NCBI GenBank assembly: GCA_947503305.1
Contig: CANNDF010000004.1
Span: 186,001 to 250,000 of the forward strand
DNA: 64,000 bases
Source of the DNA: an uncultured Dokdonia sp.
GTDB taxonomy: Bacteria > Bacteroidota > Bacteroidia > Flavobacteriales > Flavobacteriaceae
Direction: 5' to 3'
Part shown: positions 4,856-37,516 of the stretch, piece after piece
Numbering within the stretch: position 1 is the stretch's first letter
How the letters are laid out: each line of letters begins with the position of its first letter
Made by a program: the position numbers and the translations under genes
Notes under the pieces: model-generated
Told to the model about the DNA's origin: nothing
The model's database searches: none
Seen by the model: the letters and a program-made list of their open reading frames with translations, nothing else

Positions 4856-4869
4856 GCTTTCGCGAAAGC
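4856..4869. repeat. dispersed 14-bp palindrome, copy 1 (intergenic)
   Basis: Exact GCTTTCGCGAAAGC between divergent pepT and pyrD, about 22 bases upstream of the pyrD -7 element. Confidence 0.9.
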
Positions 4870-4918: not shown

Positions 4919-5935
4919 ATGTACAAACTTTTCATAAGACCCCTTCTTTTTCTTTTTGATCCAGAACGGGTTCATTATTTTACCTTTTCATTAATACGGA
5001 ATATGACTAAATTAGGTTTTAAAAGAATCTTTAGGAGTATATGGTGTGTTGAAGATCTAGATTTAGAGCGAAATGTATTTGGATTAACATTCAAAAACCC
5101 TGTAGGACTCGCAGCAGGATTTGATAAAGATGCAAAACTTTATCAAGAATTAGATAATGTAGGTTTTGGTTTTATAGAAATAGGTACGGTAACTCCTAAG
5201 CCACAGTCGGGAAATCCTAAAAAACGATTATTTAGATTAAAAAAAGATCAGGCAATCATTAATAGGATGGGCTTTAACAATGGTGGTGTAGTAGAAGCTG
5301 TGACTCGTTTAAAAAAGAACGAAGGAGTGTTAATAGGAGGGAATATAGGGAAGAATAAAATAACCCCTAATGAAGATGCTGTTCAAGATTATATACTCTG
5401 TTTTGATGCACTTTTTGAGCATGTAGATTACTTTGTCGTAAATGTAAGTTCTCCTAATACTCCAGGTTTACGAGAACTACAGGGCAAAGAACCCCTCACA
5501 CAACTATTACACACATTACAAAAGCGAAATACAGAGATGGATAGTCCTAAGCCTATTTTGCTTAAAATTGCTCCAGATCTTACCGACGATCAACTCATGG
5601 ATATTATAATTATCGTAAAAGAAACCAAAATTTCTGGCGTAATTGCTACCAATACAACTATTAGCAGAGAAGGTCTTACTTCGACCAACAAAAATGAAAT
5701 GGGTGGGTTAAGTGGTAAACCATTAACAAAAAGATCAACAGAAGTTATCCGTTTTCTCTCTGAAAAAAGTGATAAGGCATTTCCTATTATTGGAGTAGGA
5801 GGAATTCATACTGCAGAAGACGCTCTTGAAAAACTTGATGCAGGTGCCAGTCTTGTACAGCTATATACAGGCTTCATATATGAAGGGCCTCAATTAATTA
5901 AGGATATTAATAAAGCTCTTTTAAATCGTGCGTAA
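4919..5935 (+). CDS. pyrD: dihydroorotate dehydrogenase, class 2 (quinone-linked)
   Basis: At 338 residues this is the membrane-associated class 2 enzyme that oxidises dihydroorotate to orotate with transfer of electrons through FMN to quinone (pyrimidine synthesis). The N-terminal helical pair typical of class 2 (about 1-40) precedes the barrel; [12 protein letters not shown] (about 60-71), IGTVTPKPQ, the NRMGFNN segment and the catalytic [11 protein letters not shown] (about 175-185, Ser in place of the Cys of class 1) are all present, as is the IGVGGI phosphate-binding segment. A GTG of a tiny downstream gene overlaps its last codons. Confidence 0.96.
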
Positions 5936-6093: not shown

Positions 6094-7005
6094 TTATCTA
6101 ATGATAAGTTTTTGAGTAGCTCTTTTTCCATCTGTGGTTTCTATAGAGATAAAAAAGATACCAGAACCTAAGTTCCTTACATCTAGTGTTGTACTTCCTA
6201 CTGGAATCATTTGAGTTTTAATAAGCTGCCCTAGAGCAGAATAAATACTTATTTCTTGAGAAGTAGATTGATTGTTTTTAAATGTAAAAACGCCATTAGA
6301 TGGGTTTGGATACACTGAGAAAGCTTCTTCCAAATTTGCTTCTGATACCGCAAGTAAATCGTCTAATGTGATTGTAATAGTTCCCATTTTTTCATTTGAA
6401 AATGGGCTTTGTCCTTGTAAACTTGTTATGTTACCAGCTGGAGAACTATCTTGATTACTGGAGGTATAATCTACGCCATCATCAGTACCTGAGTCATATG
6501 GATATACATCAATACTAATTTCTTCTATCCAATTACCATTGTTATCCAGTAAATCAATACCATTTATAGCGATCATCCAGTCAGGACTTGGAGCTATCAT
6601 AGAGACTAAGGTCAGATAAGGATATTCTTCTGTAACTGGAATAAGGGATTGTGAAATCTCACCCAAGTTACTACTTAAAGCCCCTAAATCGATGATTTGA
6701 TACGCATTTTCATCGGCAATAGCTGAGTTTATTTCTTGAAAAAATATAGTGTTATCTCCAAGCTCTGCTACATCTTCGATTCCAGGAGTAGCTATTGAAC
6801 CCATTGCCAGAAAAGTTATTTGATCATTATGTGTTGTACCTACTAATCGAGACCAATGTGCATTGGAAGGAAGGCTACCACTACTATGCGGATGTGTAGT
6901 TTGACTCCAGTTACTAGTGAAGTTAATTGTATAAGTTGCATCTTGTGCATATACAGTAGTATAAACAATACAGATTACTATAAATAAAAAAGTATTCTTT
7001 TTCAT
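6094..7005 (-). CDS. secreted spondin-domain protein with T9SS sorting tail
   Basis: A 303-residue protein with a signal peptide (about 1-20), then a spondin_N-type domain (about 22-195). The domain is recognised from the opening YTINFTSNWS, the HWSRLVGTTHN stretch, the SPDWMIAINGIDL motif (about 141-153) and the acidic DVYPYDSGTDDGVDY stretch. Residues about 225-303 are a type A T9SS C-terminal domain (VYPNPSNGVF, then three short strands, ending KLIIR). So it is expected to be exported by Sec, moved across the outer membrane by T9SS and attached at the surface or released. In animals spondin_N occurs in F-spondin matrix proteins; in bacteria its ligand is unknown. It is convergent with pyrD. 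Confidence 0.8.
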   Translation of the reverse strand: MKKNTFLFIVICIVYTTVYAQDATYTINFTSNWSQTTHPHSSGSLPSNAHWSRLVGTTHNDQITFLAMGSIATPGIEDVAELGDNTIFFQEINSAIADENAYQIIDLGALSSNLGEISQSLIPVTEEYPYLTLVSMIAPSPDWMIAINGIDLLDNNGNWIEEISIDVYPYDSGTDDGVDYTSSNQDSSPAGNITSLQGQSPFSNEKMGTITITLDDLLAVSEANLEEAFSVYPNPSNGVFTFKNNQSTSQEISIYSALGQLIKTQMIPVGSTTLDVRNLGSGIFFISIETTDGKRATQKLIIR

Positions 7006-31735: not shown

Positions 31736-32803
31736 CTAAATTTTTAACAAAAATTCAATAGTATCAACTCCATCCGCATAATCTTCTAAGGATGGGCGTT
31801 GTGTTTGTCCAAACGCAATTTCGCTTTCGCGAAAACCATTACTAACGATACATTGTATTTTATCTGTATTTATGTCTAGTTGTGACTGTAAGGCATTCAT
31901 AGAGTCATAGGTTTCATAAAATAAAGTAGCGATAGGAGAACCAAAATTTTCATCTTCTTTAAGCATTAAGAAGCCATTTTCTAAAAGATCAAAAAGACTC
32001 ATTAAATATACCGCCTTGTTATAGTCATAATTATTGGCATATTTTGCTTGATTGATAATATCTTTCCAACTGTATATGGCATTAAAGAAAGCATCAAAAT
32101 TATAGTCTTTGGGGACATATAACTTAGATACATTACGACAGCCTAATCCATAGTATCTAAAAATATCTTCTGCCAAACCTATTAACTGCTGGTCTGTTTC
32201 ATTCCCGGTAAGGACGGCTACAGAATTCCTGTTTTTTCGAATAATGTGCGGTTTTTTTCCAAAGTAGTATTCAAAATAACGGGCCGTATTATCACTACCT
32301 GTAGCAATTACAGCATCATGTTCTGGAAGTTGATCATCTGTAAATAAAATTCGCCCTTTGAAGCTAGGTTCAACATATTCTAGATACTTTGCTAGAAACG
32401 GAAGTAAGTCTCTATCATTAGAGGATTGTTTTCCTATAAAACTATGTCCAGAGATGAGTACCGATAAAAAATCATGAAATCCAACCAAAGGAATATTACC
32501 AGCCATAATTACGGCAATTTTTTTCTGTGGGCTAGATGCTGTGTTTATTTCTGGATAAACTTGTATCCATTTTTGTAATGTGTCTCGGGTTAAAAGGGCT
32601 GTCCATCCAGCTATTGAAAATAAGATGTTCTCTTGTGTAAACCATCCATTGTGTTCTTGTGCAAGTTTTATTTGATTCTTAAATCCATCAAAGAATAGGT
32701 CATTATAGGGGATTTCTTCTTTTTTAGAAATGCCTGTAGATTTATATTGAGAAAGAAAATGCCCTAATTGGACAAAAGCGTTAATTCTTTGAGATACATC
32801 CAT
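31736..32803 (-). CDS. acyl-CoA reductase-like (LuxC-domain) protein
   Basis: A 355-residue member of the aldehyde dehydrogenase-like LuxC family. AVIMAGNIPLVGFHDFLSVL (about 98-116), IATGSDNTARYFEYYF (about 166-181) and the catalytic Cys C222 in GLGCRNVSKLYVP are recognisable. LuxC reduces activated acyl groups to aldehydes; in Flavobacteriia this stand-alone form sits next to a ferredoxin and serC-serA and its true substrate is unknown. A near-copy of the dispersed palindrome is read here as FRES. Its promoter overlaps that of the divergent ferredoxin gene. Confidence 0.8.
   Translation of the reverse strand: MDVSQRINAFVQLGHFLSQYKSTGISKKEEIPYNDLFFDGFKNQIKLAQEHNGWFTQENILFSIAGWTALLTRDTLQKWIQVYPEINTASSPQKKIAVIMAGNIPLVGFHDFLSVLISGHSFIGKQSSNDRDLLPFLAKYLEYVEPSFKGRILFTDDQLPEHDAVIATGSDNTARYFEYYFGKKPHIIRKNRNSVAVLTGNETDQQLIGLAEDIFRYYGLGCRNVSKLYVPKDYNFDAFFNAIYSWKDIINQAKYANNYDYNKAVYLMSLFDLLENGFLMLKEDENFGSPIATLFYETYDSMNALQSQLDINTDKIQCIVSNGFRESEIAFGQTQRPSLEDYADGVDTIEFLLKI
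31823..31836. repeat. dispersed palindrome, one mismatch (in LuxC-like gene)
   Basis: GCTTTCGCGAAAAC, read on the minus strand in the Phe-Arg-Glu-Ser frame. Confidence 0.7.
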
Positions 32804-32809
32804 AGTCGC

Positions 32810-32840
32810 TTGCCTAATCTTCGGCTAGGCATTATTTTTG
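32810..32840 (+). promoter_or_regulatory. ferredoxin promoter
   Basis: TTG (32810-32812), a 20-base spacer and TATTTTTG (32833-32840), 26 bases before the ferredoxin ATG. Arms TGCCTA (32811-32816) and TAGGCA (32826-32831) inside the spacer could be an operator. Confidence 0.7.
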
Positions 32841-32842
32841 TG

Positions 32843-32873
32843 CAAAGTTATTGAAAAGAAAAGGCTATGGCAA
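32843..32873 (-). promoter_or_regulatory. promoter of the LuxC-like reductase gene
   Basis: On the minus strand TTG (32871-32873, inside the ferredoxin start region), a 20-base spacer and TAACTTTG (32843-32850). Only 2 bases separate its -7 element from that of the ferredoxin promoter, so the two start sites face each other and their first bases would overlap. Confidence 0.65.
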
Positions 32874-33217
32874 TTATCATTACAGATGAATGTATAAACT
32901 GTGGAGCATGTGAACCAGAATGTCCAAATACTGCTATTTATGAAGGAGCAGATGATTGGCGCTATTCTGATGGAACAGATTTAAGTGGTAATATTGTTTT
33001 ACCTAATGGGAACGCTGTAAACGCAGATGAAGCTCAAGTACCTGTAAGTGACGAAATTTATTATATCATTCCTGATAAATGTACAGAGTGTAAAGGGTTT
33101 CATGACGAACCACAATGTGCGGCTGTATGTCCCGTAGATTGTTGTGTTCCTGATGAAGATCATGTTGAAACGGATGAAGTATTATTAGGAAAACAAGCGT
33201 TTATGCACCATAAATAA
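32867..33217 (+). CDS. ferredoxin with two [4Fe-4S] clusters
   Basis: A 116-residue cytoplasmic ferredoxin. The first cluster motif [13 protein letters not shown] is at about 10-22; the second is [18 protein letters not shown] at about 73-90, with the longer spacing between the second and third Cys that is typical of the Alvin/long-loop ferredoxins. The C-terminal helix follows. It is a likely electron donor for a reductase; the divergent LuxC-like gene is a possible partner. It ends with a long terminator. Confidence 0.93.
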
Positions 33218-33230
33218 TACAGTTAGTATA

Positions 33231-33279
33231 TAGAACATAAAAAAAGCCATCATTGAATGATGGCTTTTTTTATGTTCTA
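33231..33279 (+). terminator. long palindromic terminator of the ferredoxin gene
   Basis: Arms TAGAACATAAAAAAAGCCAT (33231-33250, symmetry continuing inward) and the complementary ATGGCTTTTTTTATGTTCTA (33260-33279). The right arm overlaps the first 58-bp direct repeat. Confidence 0.9.
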
Positions 33280-33325
33280 TATCTTTTTCCTGTTGACAGA
33301 GTAGAGGTAAAAGATGTTTCCGAAT
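33268..33325 (+). repeat. 58-bp direct repeat, left copy
   Basis: Identical to 36221-36278. Begins TTTTATGTTCTATATC and ends GATGTTTCCGAAT. Similarity continues for a further 8 bases with one mismatch. The pair bounds the accessory island. Confidence 0.95.
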
Positions 33326-33474
33326 GAAATAAGAATAGAAAAGAGAGAGGATTATCATTGTTGTAAAAAGTCTAAAGCTTTACCGTGTATATAAACCTTA
33401 ATTCTCTCTTTTGTTATTTCTGATTTATACATAAATATATTGAGAATCAAACTTAAGATGTGTATAGCTCACTG

Positions 33475-33555
33475 CAATTTGCTATCTTTCAATCACTGTG
33501 GAAAATTAGCAATGATTTTCCTCAACATACCATGTACAAAACCGTTATCCAACAT
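33475..33555 (+). repeat. island internal repeat, copy A
   Basis: Starts with the 19-base CAATTTGCTATCTTTCAAT (33475-33493), then a hairpin GGAAAAT/ATTTTCC (33500-33506, 33515-33521) and ACCGTT. The same order occurs at 34809-34885. Confidence 0.75.
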
Positions 33556-33621
33556 TTGATGACGAGTTGAGTATTAAGCAAATGTGGCTTAATTCTTGAG
33601 CTGAATACCTCAAAAAGTAAT

Positions 33622-34749
33622 ATGAAATACTCTTTATTCTTTGTATCCTTTTTTTTAATTACTTCATTTGGAACATCATTTTCTCAGGAGAATAATACAG
33701 GCGATATTATTTCAAGAATTATCCAAAAAAACGGTCAGAAGTTCGTAAAAAATAAGAATATAAGTTCTGTTTCAATAGGGATCTATAAAGATGGTCAAGT
33801 TTACACCGAACACTTTGGGGAAATCGTAAAAGGAAAAGGCAACCTGCCAAATGACAAAACTATTTATGAGGTTGGTTCCGTTTCAAAAACCATTACTGGC
33901 TATCTTGTTGCTAAAGCCGTTCTAGAGCAAAAAATTAAATTAGAAGACGATATTAGAATTTATTTAGAAGGAAATTATTCAAATTTAGAATATAACGGCA
34001 CGCCAATCACAATAAGAAACTTAATTACACACACAAGCGGATTACCAACATTCCTTCCTGCCAAAATGAATGGATTATATGAAAAACTTACTAAAGAAGT
34101 ACCTAACGAATTCTTAGCTTTAGAAAAATCATATGATAAAGAAAAATTCTTAAGTGATTTAGGAAGTGTTTCAATTACAACAGAACCAGGGGTCAATTAT
34201 TTGTATTCCAATGCTGGTACAGAATTAATAGGATATATCTTAGAAGCAGTCTATCAAAAAAGTATTGACGAGTTATTAAAAGAAAATATCTCTGATAAAT
34301 ACAATATGTCAACTACAGCAATTACATTGGACTCAACACAAACTAAAAACCTCGTTCTTGGATATTGGATGAACAGTGAAACACCTGCGCCTAATAACTT
34401 GAACTCTCTTTGGGGAACAGCTGGTGGGATTAAAATGACAATTACAGATGTAATGCACTATATCGAATTACAACTGGATGATAAAAATCCAATAGTTTCT
34501 GAATCACATAAAGCACTTTATGAGGTGCGTTATCCATTACAAATAGCCTATTACTGGCGAGTTTGGAAAGATAAATATGGAACTTCATACAATCATCATG
34601 GAGGAACGAGTGGTACCCAAAATTGGTTATTCATTTATCCAAAATATAATTTAGGAATATCAATTATAACTAATCAAAGTGGGCCTAAAACACCAAACTT
34701 GTTAAGTAAAACGGCTCAAAAAATGCTTAAGGAATTAATAAAAGAATAA
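33622..34749 (+). CDS. secreted serine hydrolase, beta-lactamase class C fold
   Basis: A 375-residue protein with signal peptide (about 1-21). The penicillin-binding motifs are S86-x-x-K89 (GSVSKTITG), Y195-S-N197 (YLYSNAG) and a HHGGTSG box in the C-terminal third, with the usual LITHTSGLP segment at about 134-142. Members include AmpC-type enzymes, D-aminopeptidases and esterases; the activity cannot be told from sequence. It is one of two genes of the island at 33326-36220. Its leader shares a repeat with that of the following gene. A link to defence is not established. Confidence 0.82.
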   Translation: MKYSLFFVSFFLITSFGTSFSQENNTGDIISRIIQKNGQKFVKNKNISSVSIGIYKDGQVYTEHFGEIVKGKGNLPNDKTIYEVGSVSKTITGYLVAKAVLEQKIKLEDDIRIYLEGNYSNLEYNGTPITIRNLITHTSGLPTFLPAKMNGLYEKLTKEVPNEFLALEKSYDKEKFLSDLGSVSITTEPGVNYLYSNAGTELIGYILEAVYQKSIDELLKENISDKYNMSTTAITLDSTQTKNLVLGYWMNSETPAPNNLNSLWGTAGGIKMTITDVMHYIELQLDDKNPIVSESHKALYEVRYPLQIAYYWRVWKDKYGTSYNHHGGTSGTQNWLFIYPKYNLGISIITNQSGPKTPNLLSKTAQKMLKELIKE

Positions 34750-34808
34750 AACGTTGAGTACATTGTATATATCTCATTGCGAATGAATTACTTAACTAGA
34801 ATTCATTA

Positions 34809-34885
34809 CAATTTGCTATCTTTCAATAATGACGGAAAATCATAGCTAATTTTCTATTACGAGTTACATACAATACCGTTGGCAA
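34809..34885 (+). repeat. island internal repeat, copy B
   Basis: CAATTTGCTATCTTTCAAT (34809-34827), then GGAAAAT and ATTTTC arms (34834-34840, 34849-34854), then ACATACAATACCGTT just before the Shedu-like gene. It parallels copy A at roughly two thirds identity after the perfect 19 bases. Confidence 0.75.
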
Positions 34886-34890
34886 TAATT

Positions 34891-36138
34891 ATGAATCATA
34901 GACACATAGTACAAAAAAGCGTAAACCAACTATTAGATGAAAGTATAGAAATATCAGAAAGAGTTTTTCAATCACTTAATATAACGGGGAAATATGGAAA
35001 ACCTCCATCTCCATTAAACATATACTCAAAATTATACCATAGTTTCCCAGCCATTAATATGTTTTATGATAAAATTGGTTTTAAAACGGAAAATCTTGGC
35101 GGAAGTTATCATAATGAAAAATATAAAAACGAAAGAACAGTTGAATCTATTCACTTAAATAACTCTTCATTATGGAAAAATCAGTTAGCAAGAATTTTCT
35201 TCGATAAAATAGATTATCGTACAAAAAAATTAAACCGCATCGGTCAAAAAATAAAAAACACGAATCAACTTGACCTTCAATTATTGACTGAATCAATATT
35301 ATTTCATAAGAGAACAGATACTCAAGCGAATGCTCTTTTGAGAAAAATAATAAATGATTCTAACAATGATTTGACAGAAGTTAATTTAATAAATTTTGAG
35401 TCAAAACTTTCATCGTTTTTTAATGAAATTTCTGTTTTAGATTCTAGTTATAATGATCAGCAATTCATTATATATTTTGAAAATAATAAAATAAAATTAA
35501 GACCATTTGGTCATTTTGGAACGTATAATATTAACCTATCTCAAGATCAAAATAGAAATCTATCCAGAACTAACATTATTCAACAGTCGAATGTGTTTTC
35601 TGTTGAATCCATATTTGAATTAGAATACTTAATTAACAAAGATGGACTAGAAAGAGATTTTCAAAATTTCTTTGAAAGAAATCCTATTTTTTTAACCACA
35701 CTAGGAGATTATTCGAGTATACATTCACAAATAATACTGAAAGAAGAGAATGGAAGTGATTTAATTCCTGATTTTTTTCTTGAAAAAATAGATTCAGATT
35801 TTTGTGATATTTGCGATTTAAAAAGGCCTAACGCAGAATTAAGAAGACTACAAAAAAACAGAAATAGATTTAAGTCTAGCGTTTATGAAGCAGTAGCGCA
35901 ATTAACAAATTACAGAGATTATTTTGAAGATTCAATAAATAGAAAGAATTTTTCTGAGAGATATAACATTCAATCTTACAGACCAAAAGTTGTACTAATT
36001 ATCGGAAGACAAAATTCTTATTATGATGATATTGAAAAGATTAAAATTGAAAGCCAGCTACCAAATTGGGTAGATTTAAAAACCTATGATAACATATTAA
36101 ATAAAGCTAAATTCCTTAATAATTTAATAGGTCAGTAA
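34891..36138 (+). CDS. Shedu-like (DUF4263) predicted anti-phage nuclease
   Basis: The start was placed at ATG 34891-34893; a TTG 12 bases upstream is possible. The 415-residue protein has a long N-terminal region (about 1-235) that I do not recognise and a C-terminal domain with the Shedu/PD-(D/E)XK layout. E254 lies in GLERDFQNFFERNP, D294 in LIPDF, D309-x-K311 in CDLKRP, and Q337 in AVAQLTNYRDYF. Shedu SduA proteins are single-gene anti-phage systems that cut DNA, with variable N-terminal sensing regions. The gene lies in a repeat-bounded island and is richer in A/T than its neighbours, which suggests horizontal acquisition. Nuclease activity and defence are inferred from motifs. Confidence 0.75.
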   Translation: MNHRHIVQKSVNQLLDESIEISERVFQSLNITGKYGKPPSPLNIYSKLYHSFPAINMFYDKIGFKTENLGGSYHNEKYKNERTVESIHLNNSSLWKNQLARIFFDKIDYRTKKLNRIGQKIKNTNQLDLQLLTESILFHKRTDTQANALLRKIINDSNNDLTEVNLINFESKLSSFFNEISVLDSSYNDQQFIIYFENNKIKLRPFGHFGTYNINLSQDQNRNLSRTNIIQQSNVFSVESIFELEYLINKDGLERDFQNFFERNPIFLTTLGDYSSIHSQIILKEENGSDLIPDFFLEKIDSDFCDICDLKRPNAELRRLQKNRNRFKSSVYEAVAQLTNYRDYFEDSINRKNFSERYNIQSYRPKVVLIIGRQNSYYDDIEKIKIESQLPNWVDLKTYDNILNKAKFLNNLIGQ

Positions 36139-36220
36139 TAACTGTGCCCAACAACTTGGATAGTTAATAGTATTTAAAGATGGTTGGGAAAATTCTACCA
36201 AATTTCCACACTCTTCGTTC

Positions 36221-36278
36221 TTTTATGTTCTATATCTTTTTCCTGTTGACAGAGTAGAGGTAAAAGATGTTTCCGAAT
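36221..36278 (+). repeat. 58-bp direct repeat, right copy
   Basis: Identical to 33268-33325; ends next to the terminator of the minus-strand T9SS gene. Confidence 0.95.
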
Positions 36279-36279
36279 A

Positions 36280-36317
36280 AAATAAGGAGTGTAAAAAAAG
36301 ATAGACACTCCTTATTT
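36280..36317 (-). terminator. terminator of the DUF4394-like gene
   Basis: Perfect 13-base arms AAATAAGGAGTGT (36280-36292) and ACACTCCTTATTT (36305-36317). Confidence 0.9.
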
Positions 36318-36331
36318 CATTTTTAGAAGGA

Positions 36332-37516
36332 TTATTTTTTTATAAAGCGTATAACTTCCGTTTGTTCTTGATCATTCTTGATATTTAAGAAGTATATCCC
36401 ACTTTGCAACTTTGAAACATCAATTGTATTACTCTCTTTGATGTATATAGGGTTTTCCATTATAAGTTGTCCTTGTAGATTTATAACCTGTATTGACGTT
36501 ATACTTTTTTGAGATTCTATCGTAATAACATCAGTTACAGGGTTTGGAAATAGAGTAGTTTCTGATAGTTGAATATCAGTAAGACCTAAGGTTGAAGGAT
36601 TTTGAATACTTGCCCATGGGATTTGCACGTCAGTGCCATTACCAAGGAGATCAATAAAGGTCGTTTCTCCAGTAGTAAGGTTTACTGTGCGCATTTCAGC
36701 ATTTATAGTTGTTCCGTTAAAGGCAGTCATATACATAATTTGTGAAGCAGCATCCCACTCAAGATCTTGTCCAAAATTAGCATTAAAGTCTAGCGAAGCT
36801 ATAAATGTAGCATTTCCAGTAGCTATATCAATACTATAGAAACTATCTGAAACCACATCGTGTCCATACATATTTACATTGCTATCAAAAGCAATTGATA
36901 TCATTCCTGTAGTTCCAGTCTGACCAATAGGCGTAGCGGTAAGGGTTACGAGATCTATGGTAGAGAGTGTTGAAGAGGTAGAAAAATTGGAGGAAATTCC
37001 ATAAAGCGTATTGGTACCTGTATTAAATTCTATTCCATTCCACTCTTCTCCGTTAGGAGGCGTAATAGTTCCAAGAGATGTATAGGTTGCCGTAAGAATA
37101 TCTACTTGATATAATTCTCCATTTGTTAATGTCAATACATATGCTGTATTTATGTTTTCGGGATCAATATCTCCAGAAGATTCAAAATCTGCAGTACCAG
37201 AGTTATTTCCAATAATAGTTAATACTGTAGGTGTTGATGGATCAAAGGATACAAACTCATCTTCATCAGTATTTGGGCCATAGATGGTAAGGTTATTTCC
37301 TCTTTGAGTATCTGATGGATGTGTAACTACTTCAGAAAAATAATCCTTTAACGCTATAATTTCTTCTGTAGAAAAATAATGTGATATATGCCCGCCATTA
37401 GGAGGGATGTTATGATAACGATCTAAGAGAGTATCCATATTTATAGTGTTGTTGGTTTGAGCTATACTAGCTCCTATGCAAAATAGGATACACGAGATAA
37501 ATGTAATTTTTTTCAT
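36332..37516 (-). CDS. secreted DUF4394-like repeat protein with T9SS tail
   Basis: A 394-residue protein with signal peptide (about 1-19) and a run of short beta repeats (about 80-300) of the kind YxVDxxTGxxTxIG, e.g. LYQVDILTATYTSLGTI, FYSIDIATGNATFIASL and EMRTVNLTTGETTFIDL, which suggests a beta-propeller close to DUF4394. A T9SS type A tail (about 320-394, LFPNPVTDVITIES, ending RFIKK) targets it to the outside. No catalytic residues are apparent. Confidence 0.75.
   Translation of the reverse strand: MKKITFISCILFCIGASIAQTNNTINMDTLLDRYHNIPPNGGHISHYFSTEEIIALKDYFSEVVTHPSDTQRGNNLTIYGPNTDEDEFVSFDPSTPTVLTIIGNNSGTADFESSGDIDPENINTAYVLTLTNGELYQVDILTATYTSLGTITPPNGEEWNGIEFNTGTNTLYGISSNFSTSSTLSTIDLVTLTATPIGQTGTTGMISIAFDSNVNMYGHDVVSDSFYSIDIATGNATFIASLDFNANFGQDLEWDAASQIMYMTAFNGTTINAEMRTVNLTTGETTFIDLLGNGTDVQIPWASIQNPSTLGLTDIQLSETTLFPNPVTDVITIESQKSITSIQVINLQGQLIMENPIYIKESNTIDVSKLQSGIYFLNIKNDQEQTEVIRFIKK

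Follow-up and report, generated by a model that had tools for sequence, protein, structure and literature searches.

Orphan integron cassettes between two copies of a perfect 58-bp direct repeat in an uncultured Dokdonia genome

Organization of the locus

The element described here is a small island in a 64,000-nucleotide stretch of DNA (hereafter the window) from an uncultured Dokdonia sp. of the Flavobacteriaceae (assembly GCA_947503305.1, contig CANNDF010000004.1, positions 186,001 to 250,000). Two copies of a 58-bp direct repeat, identical at 58/58 bases, lie at 33268-33325 and 36221-36278 with a start-to-start distance of 2953, and the 2,895 bp between them hold two genes and at least two integron attC sites. 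An earlier sequence-only reading of this DNA had proposed an island of ~2.9 kb bracketed by perfect 58-bp copies between convergent genes; both the identity of the copies and the convergence of the ferredoxin gene (+) and the Por_Secre_tail gene (-) hold. That reading overlooked the nature of the insert, which, as judged from model matches and DNA identity, is made of integron cassettes. Two covariance models were used for attC sites: R1, built from ten attC sites with attC_b among them, and R2, built from nine attC sites of the same genome outside the island and run over the whole window. The features of the locus are as follows.

32867..33217, +, ferredoxin gene (4Fe-4S), left neighbour (ORF; Pfam Fer4 families)
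33228..33282, +, ferredoxin terminator, 27-bp perfect stem with a 1-nt loop
33268..33325, no strand, left 58-bp direct repeat, with a 15-base overlap with the 3' arm of the ferredoxin terminator
33326..33416, no strand, insert DNA left of attC_a, folding no better than shuffles
33417..33551, +, attC_a, decayed integron attC site with a shortened inner part (R1 34.6 bits; R2 30.3 bits; DNA identity 77-80%)
33622..34749, +, serine hydrolase of beta-lactamase fold, first cassette gene (PF00144, E 2.2e-47)
34754..34885, +, attC_b, integron attC site (R2 69.6 bits; DNA identity 78% over 115-120 bp)
34891..36138, +, Shedu-type protein with an SduA_C domain, second cassette gene (PF14082, E 1e-13)
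36145..36190, +, attC_c, remnant, possibly the R''-L'' part of an attC site closing the Shedu cassette (R1 8.0 bits)
36221..36278, no strand, right 58-bp direct repeat, running into the start of the adjacent hairpin
36276..36321, -, terminator-like hairpin of the right neighbour (inverted repeat 36276-36292/36305-36321)
36332..37516, -, type IX sorted protein gene (Por_Secre_tail), right neighbour (ORF; Pfam)

attC sites within the island

Across the window, the best R2 match is attC_b (E 1.5e-13) and the second best falls on attC_a (33428-33551; E 1e-4), with the next match at E 0.66. The R1 score at attC_b proves nothing, because this site was part of the R1 training set. Resemblance to other arrays of the same genome is also evident at the DNA level: the segment 34747-34900 resembles C4:412517-412636 and C5:371804-371918 (78%; E 5e-22 and 6.5e-19), and the upstream DNA at 33327-33621 resembles C5:371845-371923 (80%) and C4:412555-412645 (77%). 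In addition, the attC_c region has the ACT-N6-AAC letters found at other cassette ends. Because of the R2 matches and the ACT-N6-AAC letters at the Shedu end, the island is taken to hold two attC sites and, perhaps, what is left of a third one. With at least two attC sites, here in one orientation (attC_a and attC_b), and no nearby integron integrase (0 of the 14 matches of this genome to the integron-integrase model TIGR02249 fall in the window), the island is, on sequence evidence, a small, partly decayed cluster of attC sites lacking an integrase (CALIN), for which the accessible text of PMC9024848 gives a threshold of at least two attC sites.

Cargo of the insert

The first cassette gene encodes a protein of 375 aa with SVSK, YSN and HGG motifs, which is probably exported, a signal peptide being suggested by eye only. 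It reaches the cut-off of none of the NCBIfam models shown and, because it misses the one for class C beta-lactamases (bla_class_C, 102.8 bits against 415), it is called a serine hydrolase only. Relatives at E 1e-60 were found in 22 of 396 other genomes of the family, with at most four candidates scored per genome. These relatives were considered as a source of the cassette and rejected, R1 attC matches near them being weak (2 matches among 19 loci, E 0.016 and 0.29); attC-like letters are visible by eye upstream of the relative in L113.

The second cassette gene encodes a protein of 415 aa from an ATG at 34891 (searches ran on 34894-36135), whose PF14082 score of 52.2 bits exceeds the cut-off of 27, and the best match among PADLOC SduA models has E 7.2e-17. 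The PDF and DLK residues, presumably the nuclease residues of Shedu, are located in its SduA_C domain, and the protein is a probable anti-phage nuclease. Roughly its first 200 residues lie outside every best Pfam or PADLOC stretch. The 396 other family genomes gave one weak match (33%, C-terminal part), and in GTDB r220 none of 67 pattern matches was confirmed. The few relatives of both genes in the family agree with the earlier description of the cargo as accessory-like. The stated lack of an internal recombinase was likewise upheld, none being present in the ORFs of the island or in the Pfam results for both genes, and no integrase-model match falling in the window.

Integron arrays and integrases of the genus

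The other arrays of this genome consist of short same-orientation genes parted by elements of ~70 to 140 bp. R1 gives at least 25 attC matches in the genome, 10 of which are its training set, and matches at E 0.01 in at least 16 of the 18 genus genomes, these genus counts being lower bounds with 150 candidates scored per genome. In three array elements, folding of the bottom strand greatly surpasses that of shuffles (z -6.36, -4.57, and -3.81). Across nine elements, the two outer stems (R and L) are paired in 100% and 96.3% of cells, both-sided changes occur at two stem pairs, and a slid-structure control shows far less pairing than the actual stems. Complementarity between the start and end of a cassette is a mark of cassettes once closed into circles; it extends over 9-10 contiguous bases, including the invariant GTT/AAC, in 7 of 16 neighbouring pairs, a count made without a shuffle control and including some pairs that are probably not adjacent, because the model misses short attC sites.

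IrrE-like peptidase, DUF4411, RelA/SpoT, PLD-like, and TIR domains were observed in or beside other arrays of the same genome, and these domains suggest that such arrays may carry defence or toxin-antitoxin cargo. The array-associated genes with those domains are located at:

L094 13145-14835
L077 5074-6657
L076 1244-2311

In several congener arrays (L164, L166, L167, L168, L174, and L177), many exact repeats are shared between cassettes, and these repeat-rich inter-cassette stretches are perhaps another attC subfamily.

Three one-contig congeners (G001, G004, and G007) carry a 274-aa tyrosine recombinase followed by attC sites in a divergent integron arrangement, with 95-96% identity to the recombinase of G001:

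G001 recombinase, L218 8375-9196, attC from 10506
G007 recombinase, L219 7971-8792, attC from 9505
G004 recombinase, L220 7336-8157, attC at 6640 and below

Ten more genus genomes contain relatives of this congener integrase at 37-86% identity, many at contig ends. Around these relatives, R1 finds attC sites in G014 only (in L217 next to a 37% relative, and as one weak match, E 0.016, in L214); in the other nine genomes, the stretches around the integrase relative, where the contig mostly ends near the gene, contain no R1 attC site. A second, more distant recombinase in G014 (L217 3996-4544; 37% over 179 aa) adjoins an attC site at 4956-5090. When the genome carrying the island was compared with the congener integrase at E 1e-20, XerD was the sole match (32% identity, on another contig); in this assembly, the arrays of the island's genome thus lack an integrase of the congener kind.

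Against the integron-integrase model, the G001 recombinase scores 185.5 bits in two pieces (cut-off 265), and the segment between the aligned pieces measures 23 residues, compared to 66 in IntI4 (2a3v). The congener enzyme seems to be a XerA-like 274-aa integrase without most of the IntI-specific additional domain. According to the accessible part of PMC9668308, this domain is necessary for integron recombination. In PMC2426708, as far as its accessible text indicates, integron integrases were chosen according to whether they had the additional domain or patch, and because of this requirement such a selection would miss the integrase type of this genus.

The direct repeat and its boundaries

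The 58-bp pair is the sole exact same-strand repeat of at least 25 bp in the window, where ~4e-24 perfect 58-mer pairs would be expected by chance. Past the block, one mismatch is followed by 7 further matching bases, and 16 of the 26 bases beyond it match (shuffle p 0.056); because just these 16 agree, the block has a sharp end. Divergence of up to ~5% is still compatible with 58/58 identity (95% bound), and no strong claim on the age of the repeat is therefore made. The insert has a G+C content of 29.0%; same-size windows have a median of 35.0% and go no lower than 28.9%.

Both boundaries coincide with hairpins. The ferredoxin gene, with a DNA match in 18/18 genus genomes, is followed by a terminator with arms at 33228-33254/33256-33282; no perfect hairpin found in the window (loop up to 8) is longer, and the ferredoxin-site hairpins of congeners appear by eye to be shorter than its 27-bp stem. 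On the other side, the last 3 bases of the right copy are the first 3 of the right neighbour's stem. The terminator scan, with a loop limit of 8, called the ferredoxin hairpin but not the right one, which has a 12-nt loop. The 58-bp repeat corresponds approximately to the entire interval between the two neighbour hairpins. The sequence-only reading had each copy abutting a neighbour's terminator; the position at the hairpins is confirmed, but the copies overlap them instead of merely abutting. A search of 32800-37000 against Rfam gave no family at the gathering score, with weak matches on and around the ferredoxin hairpin.

A search of the whole genome (4.26 Mb, 57 contigs) returned the two known copies only, and the repeat is not a common terminator motif. 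No further copy occurs in 17 congeners. The 396 other family genomes, with two candidates scored per genome, likewise contain none, 33 of them having fragments of 19-36 bp at no more than 38.3 bits. The repeat was not found in phages; plasmids gave no copy and six partial matches at E 0.2 or worse, and viral contigs and GTDB r220 contigs gave no exact 27- or 26-base match, these four sets being ones that may omit records very near this genome. By eye, 16 of the 18 congener ferredoxin loci (all except L020, cut by a contig end, and L021, a second copy in G015) have no recognisable repeat after the ferredoxin gene. The right-hand gene is present in 0/18 of these loci, and among the matches listed its full-length relatives are in G013 only (53% and 30%), the 53% one in a different context.

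Exact repeats of at least 20 bp were also sought in 24 other attC-bearing stretches, a scan that repeats outside a fetched stretch would escape. Seven stretches were repeat-filled and uninformative (L164, L166, L167, L168, L174, L176, and L177, for some of which at least 12 repeats were listed), and L172, L173, and L183 were ended by contig limits. Among the 17 interpretable stretches, the only repeats bracketing attC sites are a 20-bp low-complexity one (L179) and a 23-bp common palindrome (L181); in L157, 29 bp are common to two attC sites themselves.

Apart from the island, the window contains 9 occurrences of the 14-base palindrome GCTTTCGCGAAAGC (positions 4856, 9891, 17656, 22425, 38821, 45222, 47150, 54906, and 60899). 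Congener stretches picked for attC sites, 257,852 bases in total, contain its 12-base core 44 times, compared to ~0.01 expected from rough base composition.

Origin of the repeat

The reading favoured here, to which a probability of about 0.6 is assigned, is that a CALIN fragment was inserted once between the convergent genes and that the 58-bp repeat is the spacer, duplicated by this insertion. The fragment would comprise, in order, attC_a, the serine-hydrolase cassette, attC_b, the Shedu cassette, and perhaps the attC_c remnant. A single insertion event into the spacer would have duplicated the target via repair of a staggered break, whose ends can be conjectured to have lain at the two terminator hairpins. 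Because duplicated target DNA of this kind is expected to be unique and to extend from hairpin to hairpin, the span of the repeat and its uniqueness in the collections searched fit. The block would now be fixed unless the repeats recombine, in a deletion leaving one copy, and cassette excision might become possible if an integrase arrived and acted on attC_b.

Several observations weigh against this reading. On the bottom strand, attC_b folds moderately better than shuffles (z -2.70), whereas attC_a folds no better than they do (z -0.66), and its structure is therefore considered not to be retained. The attC_c remnant is not significant alone (R1 E 0.68) and is absent among the R2 matches. Complementarity between cassette start and end amounts to 3 bases for the hydrolase (just GTT/AAC) and 5 bases for the Shedu gene; because of these low values, the island genes are termed cassette-derived instead of working cassettes. 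Inside the repeats, 91 bp on the left and 30 bp on the right match no assigned part. In the nine array elements, the share of stem pairing is not above the shuffle mean, with 266/500 column shuffles reaching the observed value, as the columns pair equally well when shuffled because most of them never vary; a third helix in the pairing count was misplaced, at 25.9% paired. Common transposons duplicate far less target DNA than 58 bp, and 0/17 interpretable attC-bearing stretches have a comparable repeat. Finally, the congener loci examined yielded no empty site, which is why duplication during insertion is kept as a proposal.

Target duplication, att integration, and a single homologous crossover would all leave an identical product. 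In a site-specific event, a tyrosine recombinase acting in trans would have joined a 2,953-bp circle with a 58-bp attP to an identical attB, the repeats being attL and attR. Such an event would account for the perfect repeat at each end, the 14 integron-integrase model matches in the genome place tyrosine recombinases at hand, and terminators, one of which the 58-bp site overlaps, are a usual place for att sites. The repeat also contains an imperfect 11-bp palindrome, ATCTTTTTCCT-N13-AGGTAAAAGAT; however, a comparable palindrome occurs in 43/3000 random 58-mers of the window, and in 18 genus genomes this one is limited to the two copies. Moreover, the island is without a recombinase by ORFs, Pfam, and the integrase model, and the core predicted to occur elsewhere was not matched by any other repeat copy in the collections searched. 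Site-specific integration is accordingly judged unlikely, and the earlier suggestion of att-like repeats capable of excision, or of a circular mobile unit, facing a weak palindrome and no further copy, is not sustained.

A Campbell-type single crossover, in which a circle already bearing the spacer beside the cassettes entered by short homology, is regarded as distinctly unlikely. Integron cassettes can exist as circles given an integrase, the product would be the same, and identity resumes for 7 bases past the one mismatch; on the other hand, homologous integration would have had just 58-66 bp to act on, a very short stretch, and no spacer-bearing donor was found in the 396 other family genomes or in GTDB r220 (exact 26-base match). 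Very improbable is a prior duplication of the spacer by slippage or template switching between the hairpins, with the cassette fragment arriving later between the tandem copies: the repeat ends do coincide with hairpins, one of them the longest perfect one found in the window, but it would take two events, with the insertion falling precisely on the copy junction. A spurious likeness to attC, in an island that is an unrelated insertion, is scarcely credible despite the decayed cassette ends, as it is contradicted by the independent R2 matches and the DNA identity to other arrays.

Further candidates were rejected. A general cassette-insertion repeat is unlikely, none comparable being present in the 17 interpretable stretches, and for the same reason repeat-flanked insertion does not appear to be the usual mode of cassette spread here. 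A dif-like site is disfavoured by the position of the ferredoxin gene in five one-contig congeners, at 0.08 or 0.78-0.93 of the contig and thus away from the middle, on the assumption that those contigs begin at the origin. Transposon ends are not apparent: the sequence within the direct repeats lacks terminal inverted repeats (877/1000 shuffles score as well). Kinship of the repeat with sequence near congener integrases was dismissed, the best match being 11 bp (E 0.10).

A broader proposition, that the integrons of this genus use an integrase without most of the extra domain and that cassette fragments from them can be deposited elsewhere by a route duplicating inter-hairpin DNA, is a long shot; if true, the island would be the first footprint of this route.

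Comparison with known systems

The island is an element of a known kind, orphan integron cassettes, with an unusual junction scar. With its scar intact at either side, such a cluster provides useful material on how orphan cassettes settle away from an integron, and the island points to an under-described integron system in the genus, whose gene content, namely the type IX sorting tail, is that of Bacteroidota. In the accessible text of IntegronFinder 2.0 (PMC9024848), Bacteroidetes are described as having yielded integrases that lacked cassettes in earlier work, and later a single complete integron. The main text of PMC8352920 contains no mention of Bacteroid- or Flavobacteri-. Among the matches listed in a literature search, which left most subscription papers outside its reach, no paper was seen that deals with the cassette arrays of this group or with orphan cassettes flanked by long direct repeats. 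Known CALINs, and the origins put forward for them, are treated in PMC8618304 and PMC12444791, and the accessible text of the former lists off-target insertion, integrase loss, and rearrangement as origins of orphan cassette clusters. According to the accessible text of PMC12444791, Shedu has been found among Xanthomonas integron cassettes.

Compared with CALINs, the island shares two same-orientation attC sites with one gene after each and no integrase nearby, but it is bracketed by a perfect 58-bp repeat, its cassette ends are decayed, and the attC family of the genus is ~130 bp long. Target duplication is not expected at attG insertions, whereas the island shows a 58-bp duplicated target. 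What it has in common with such insertions (Loot et al. 2024, as cited in the accessible text of PMC12901181 and PMC12444791) is the presence of chromosomal cassettes away from an array. With small integrative elements flanked by att repeats, it shares perfect direct repeats at the 3' end of a gene; in contrast to them, it has no recombinase gene, and no other copy of the repeat was found. Finally, its second protein resembles Shedu (SduA) in the SduA_C domain with PDF and DLK residues, while differing in ~200 unmatched N-terminal residues and in having one weak relative in 396 family genomes.

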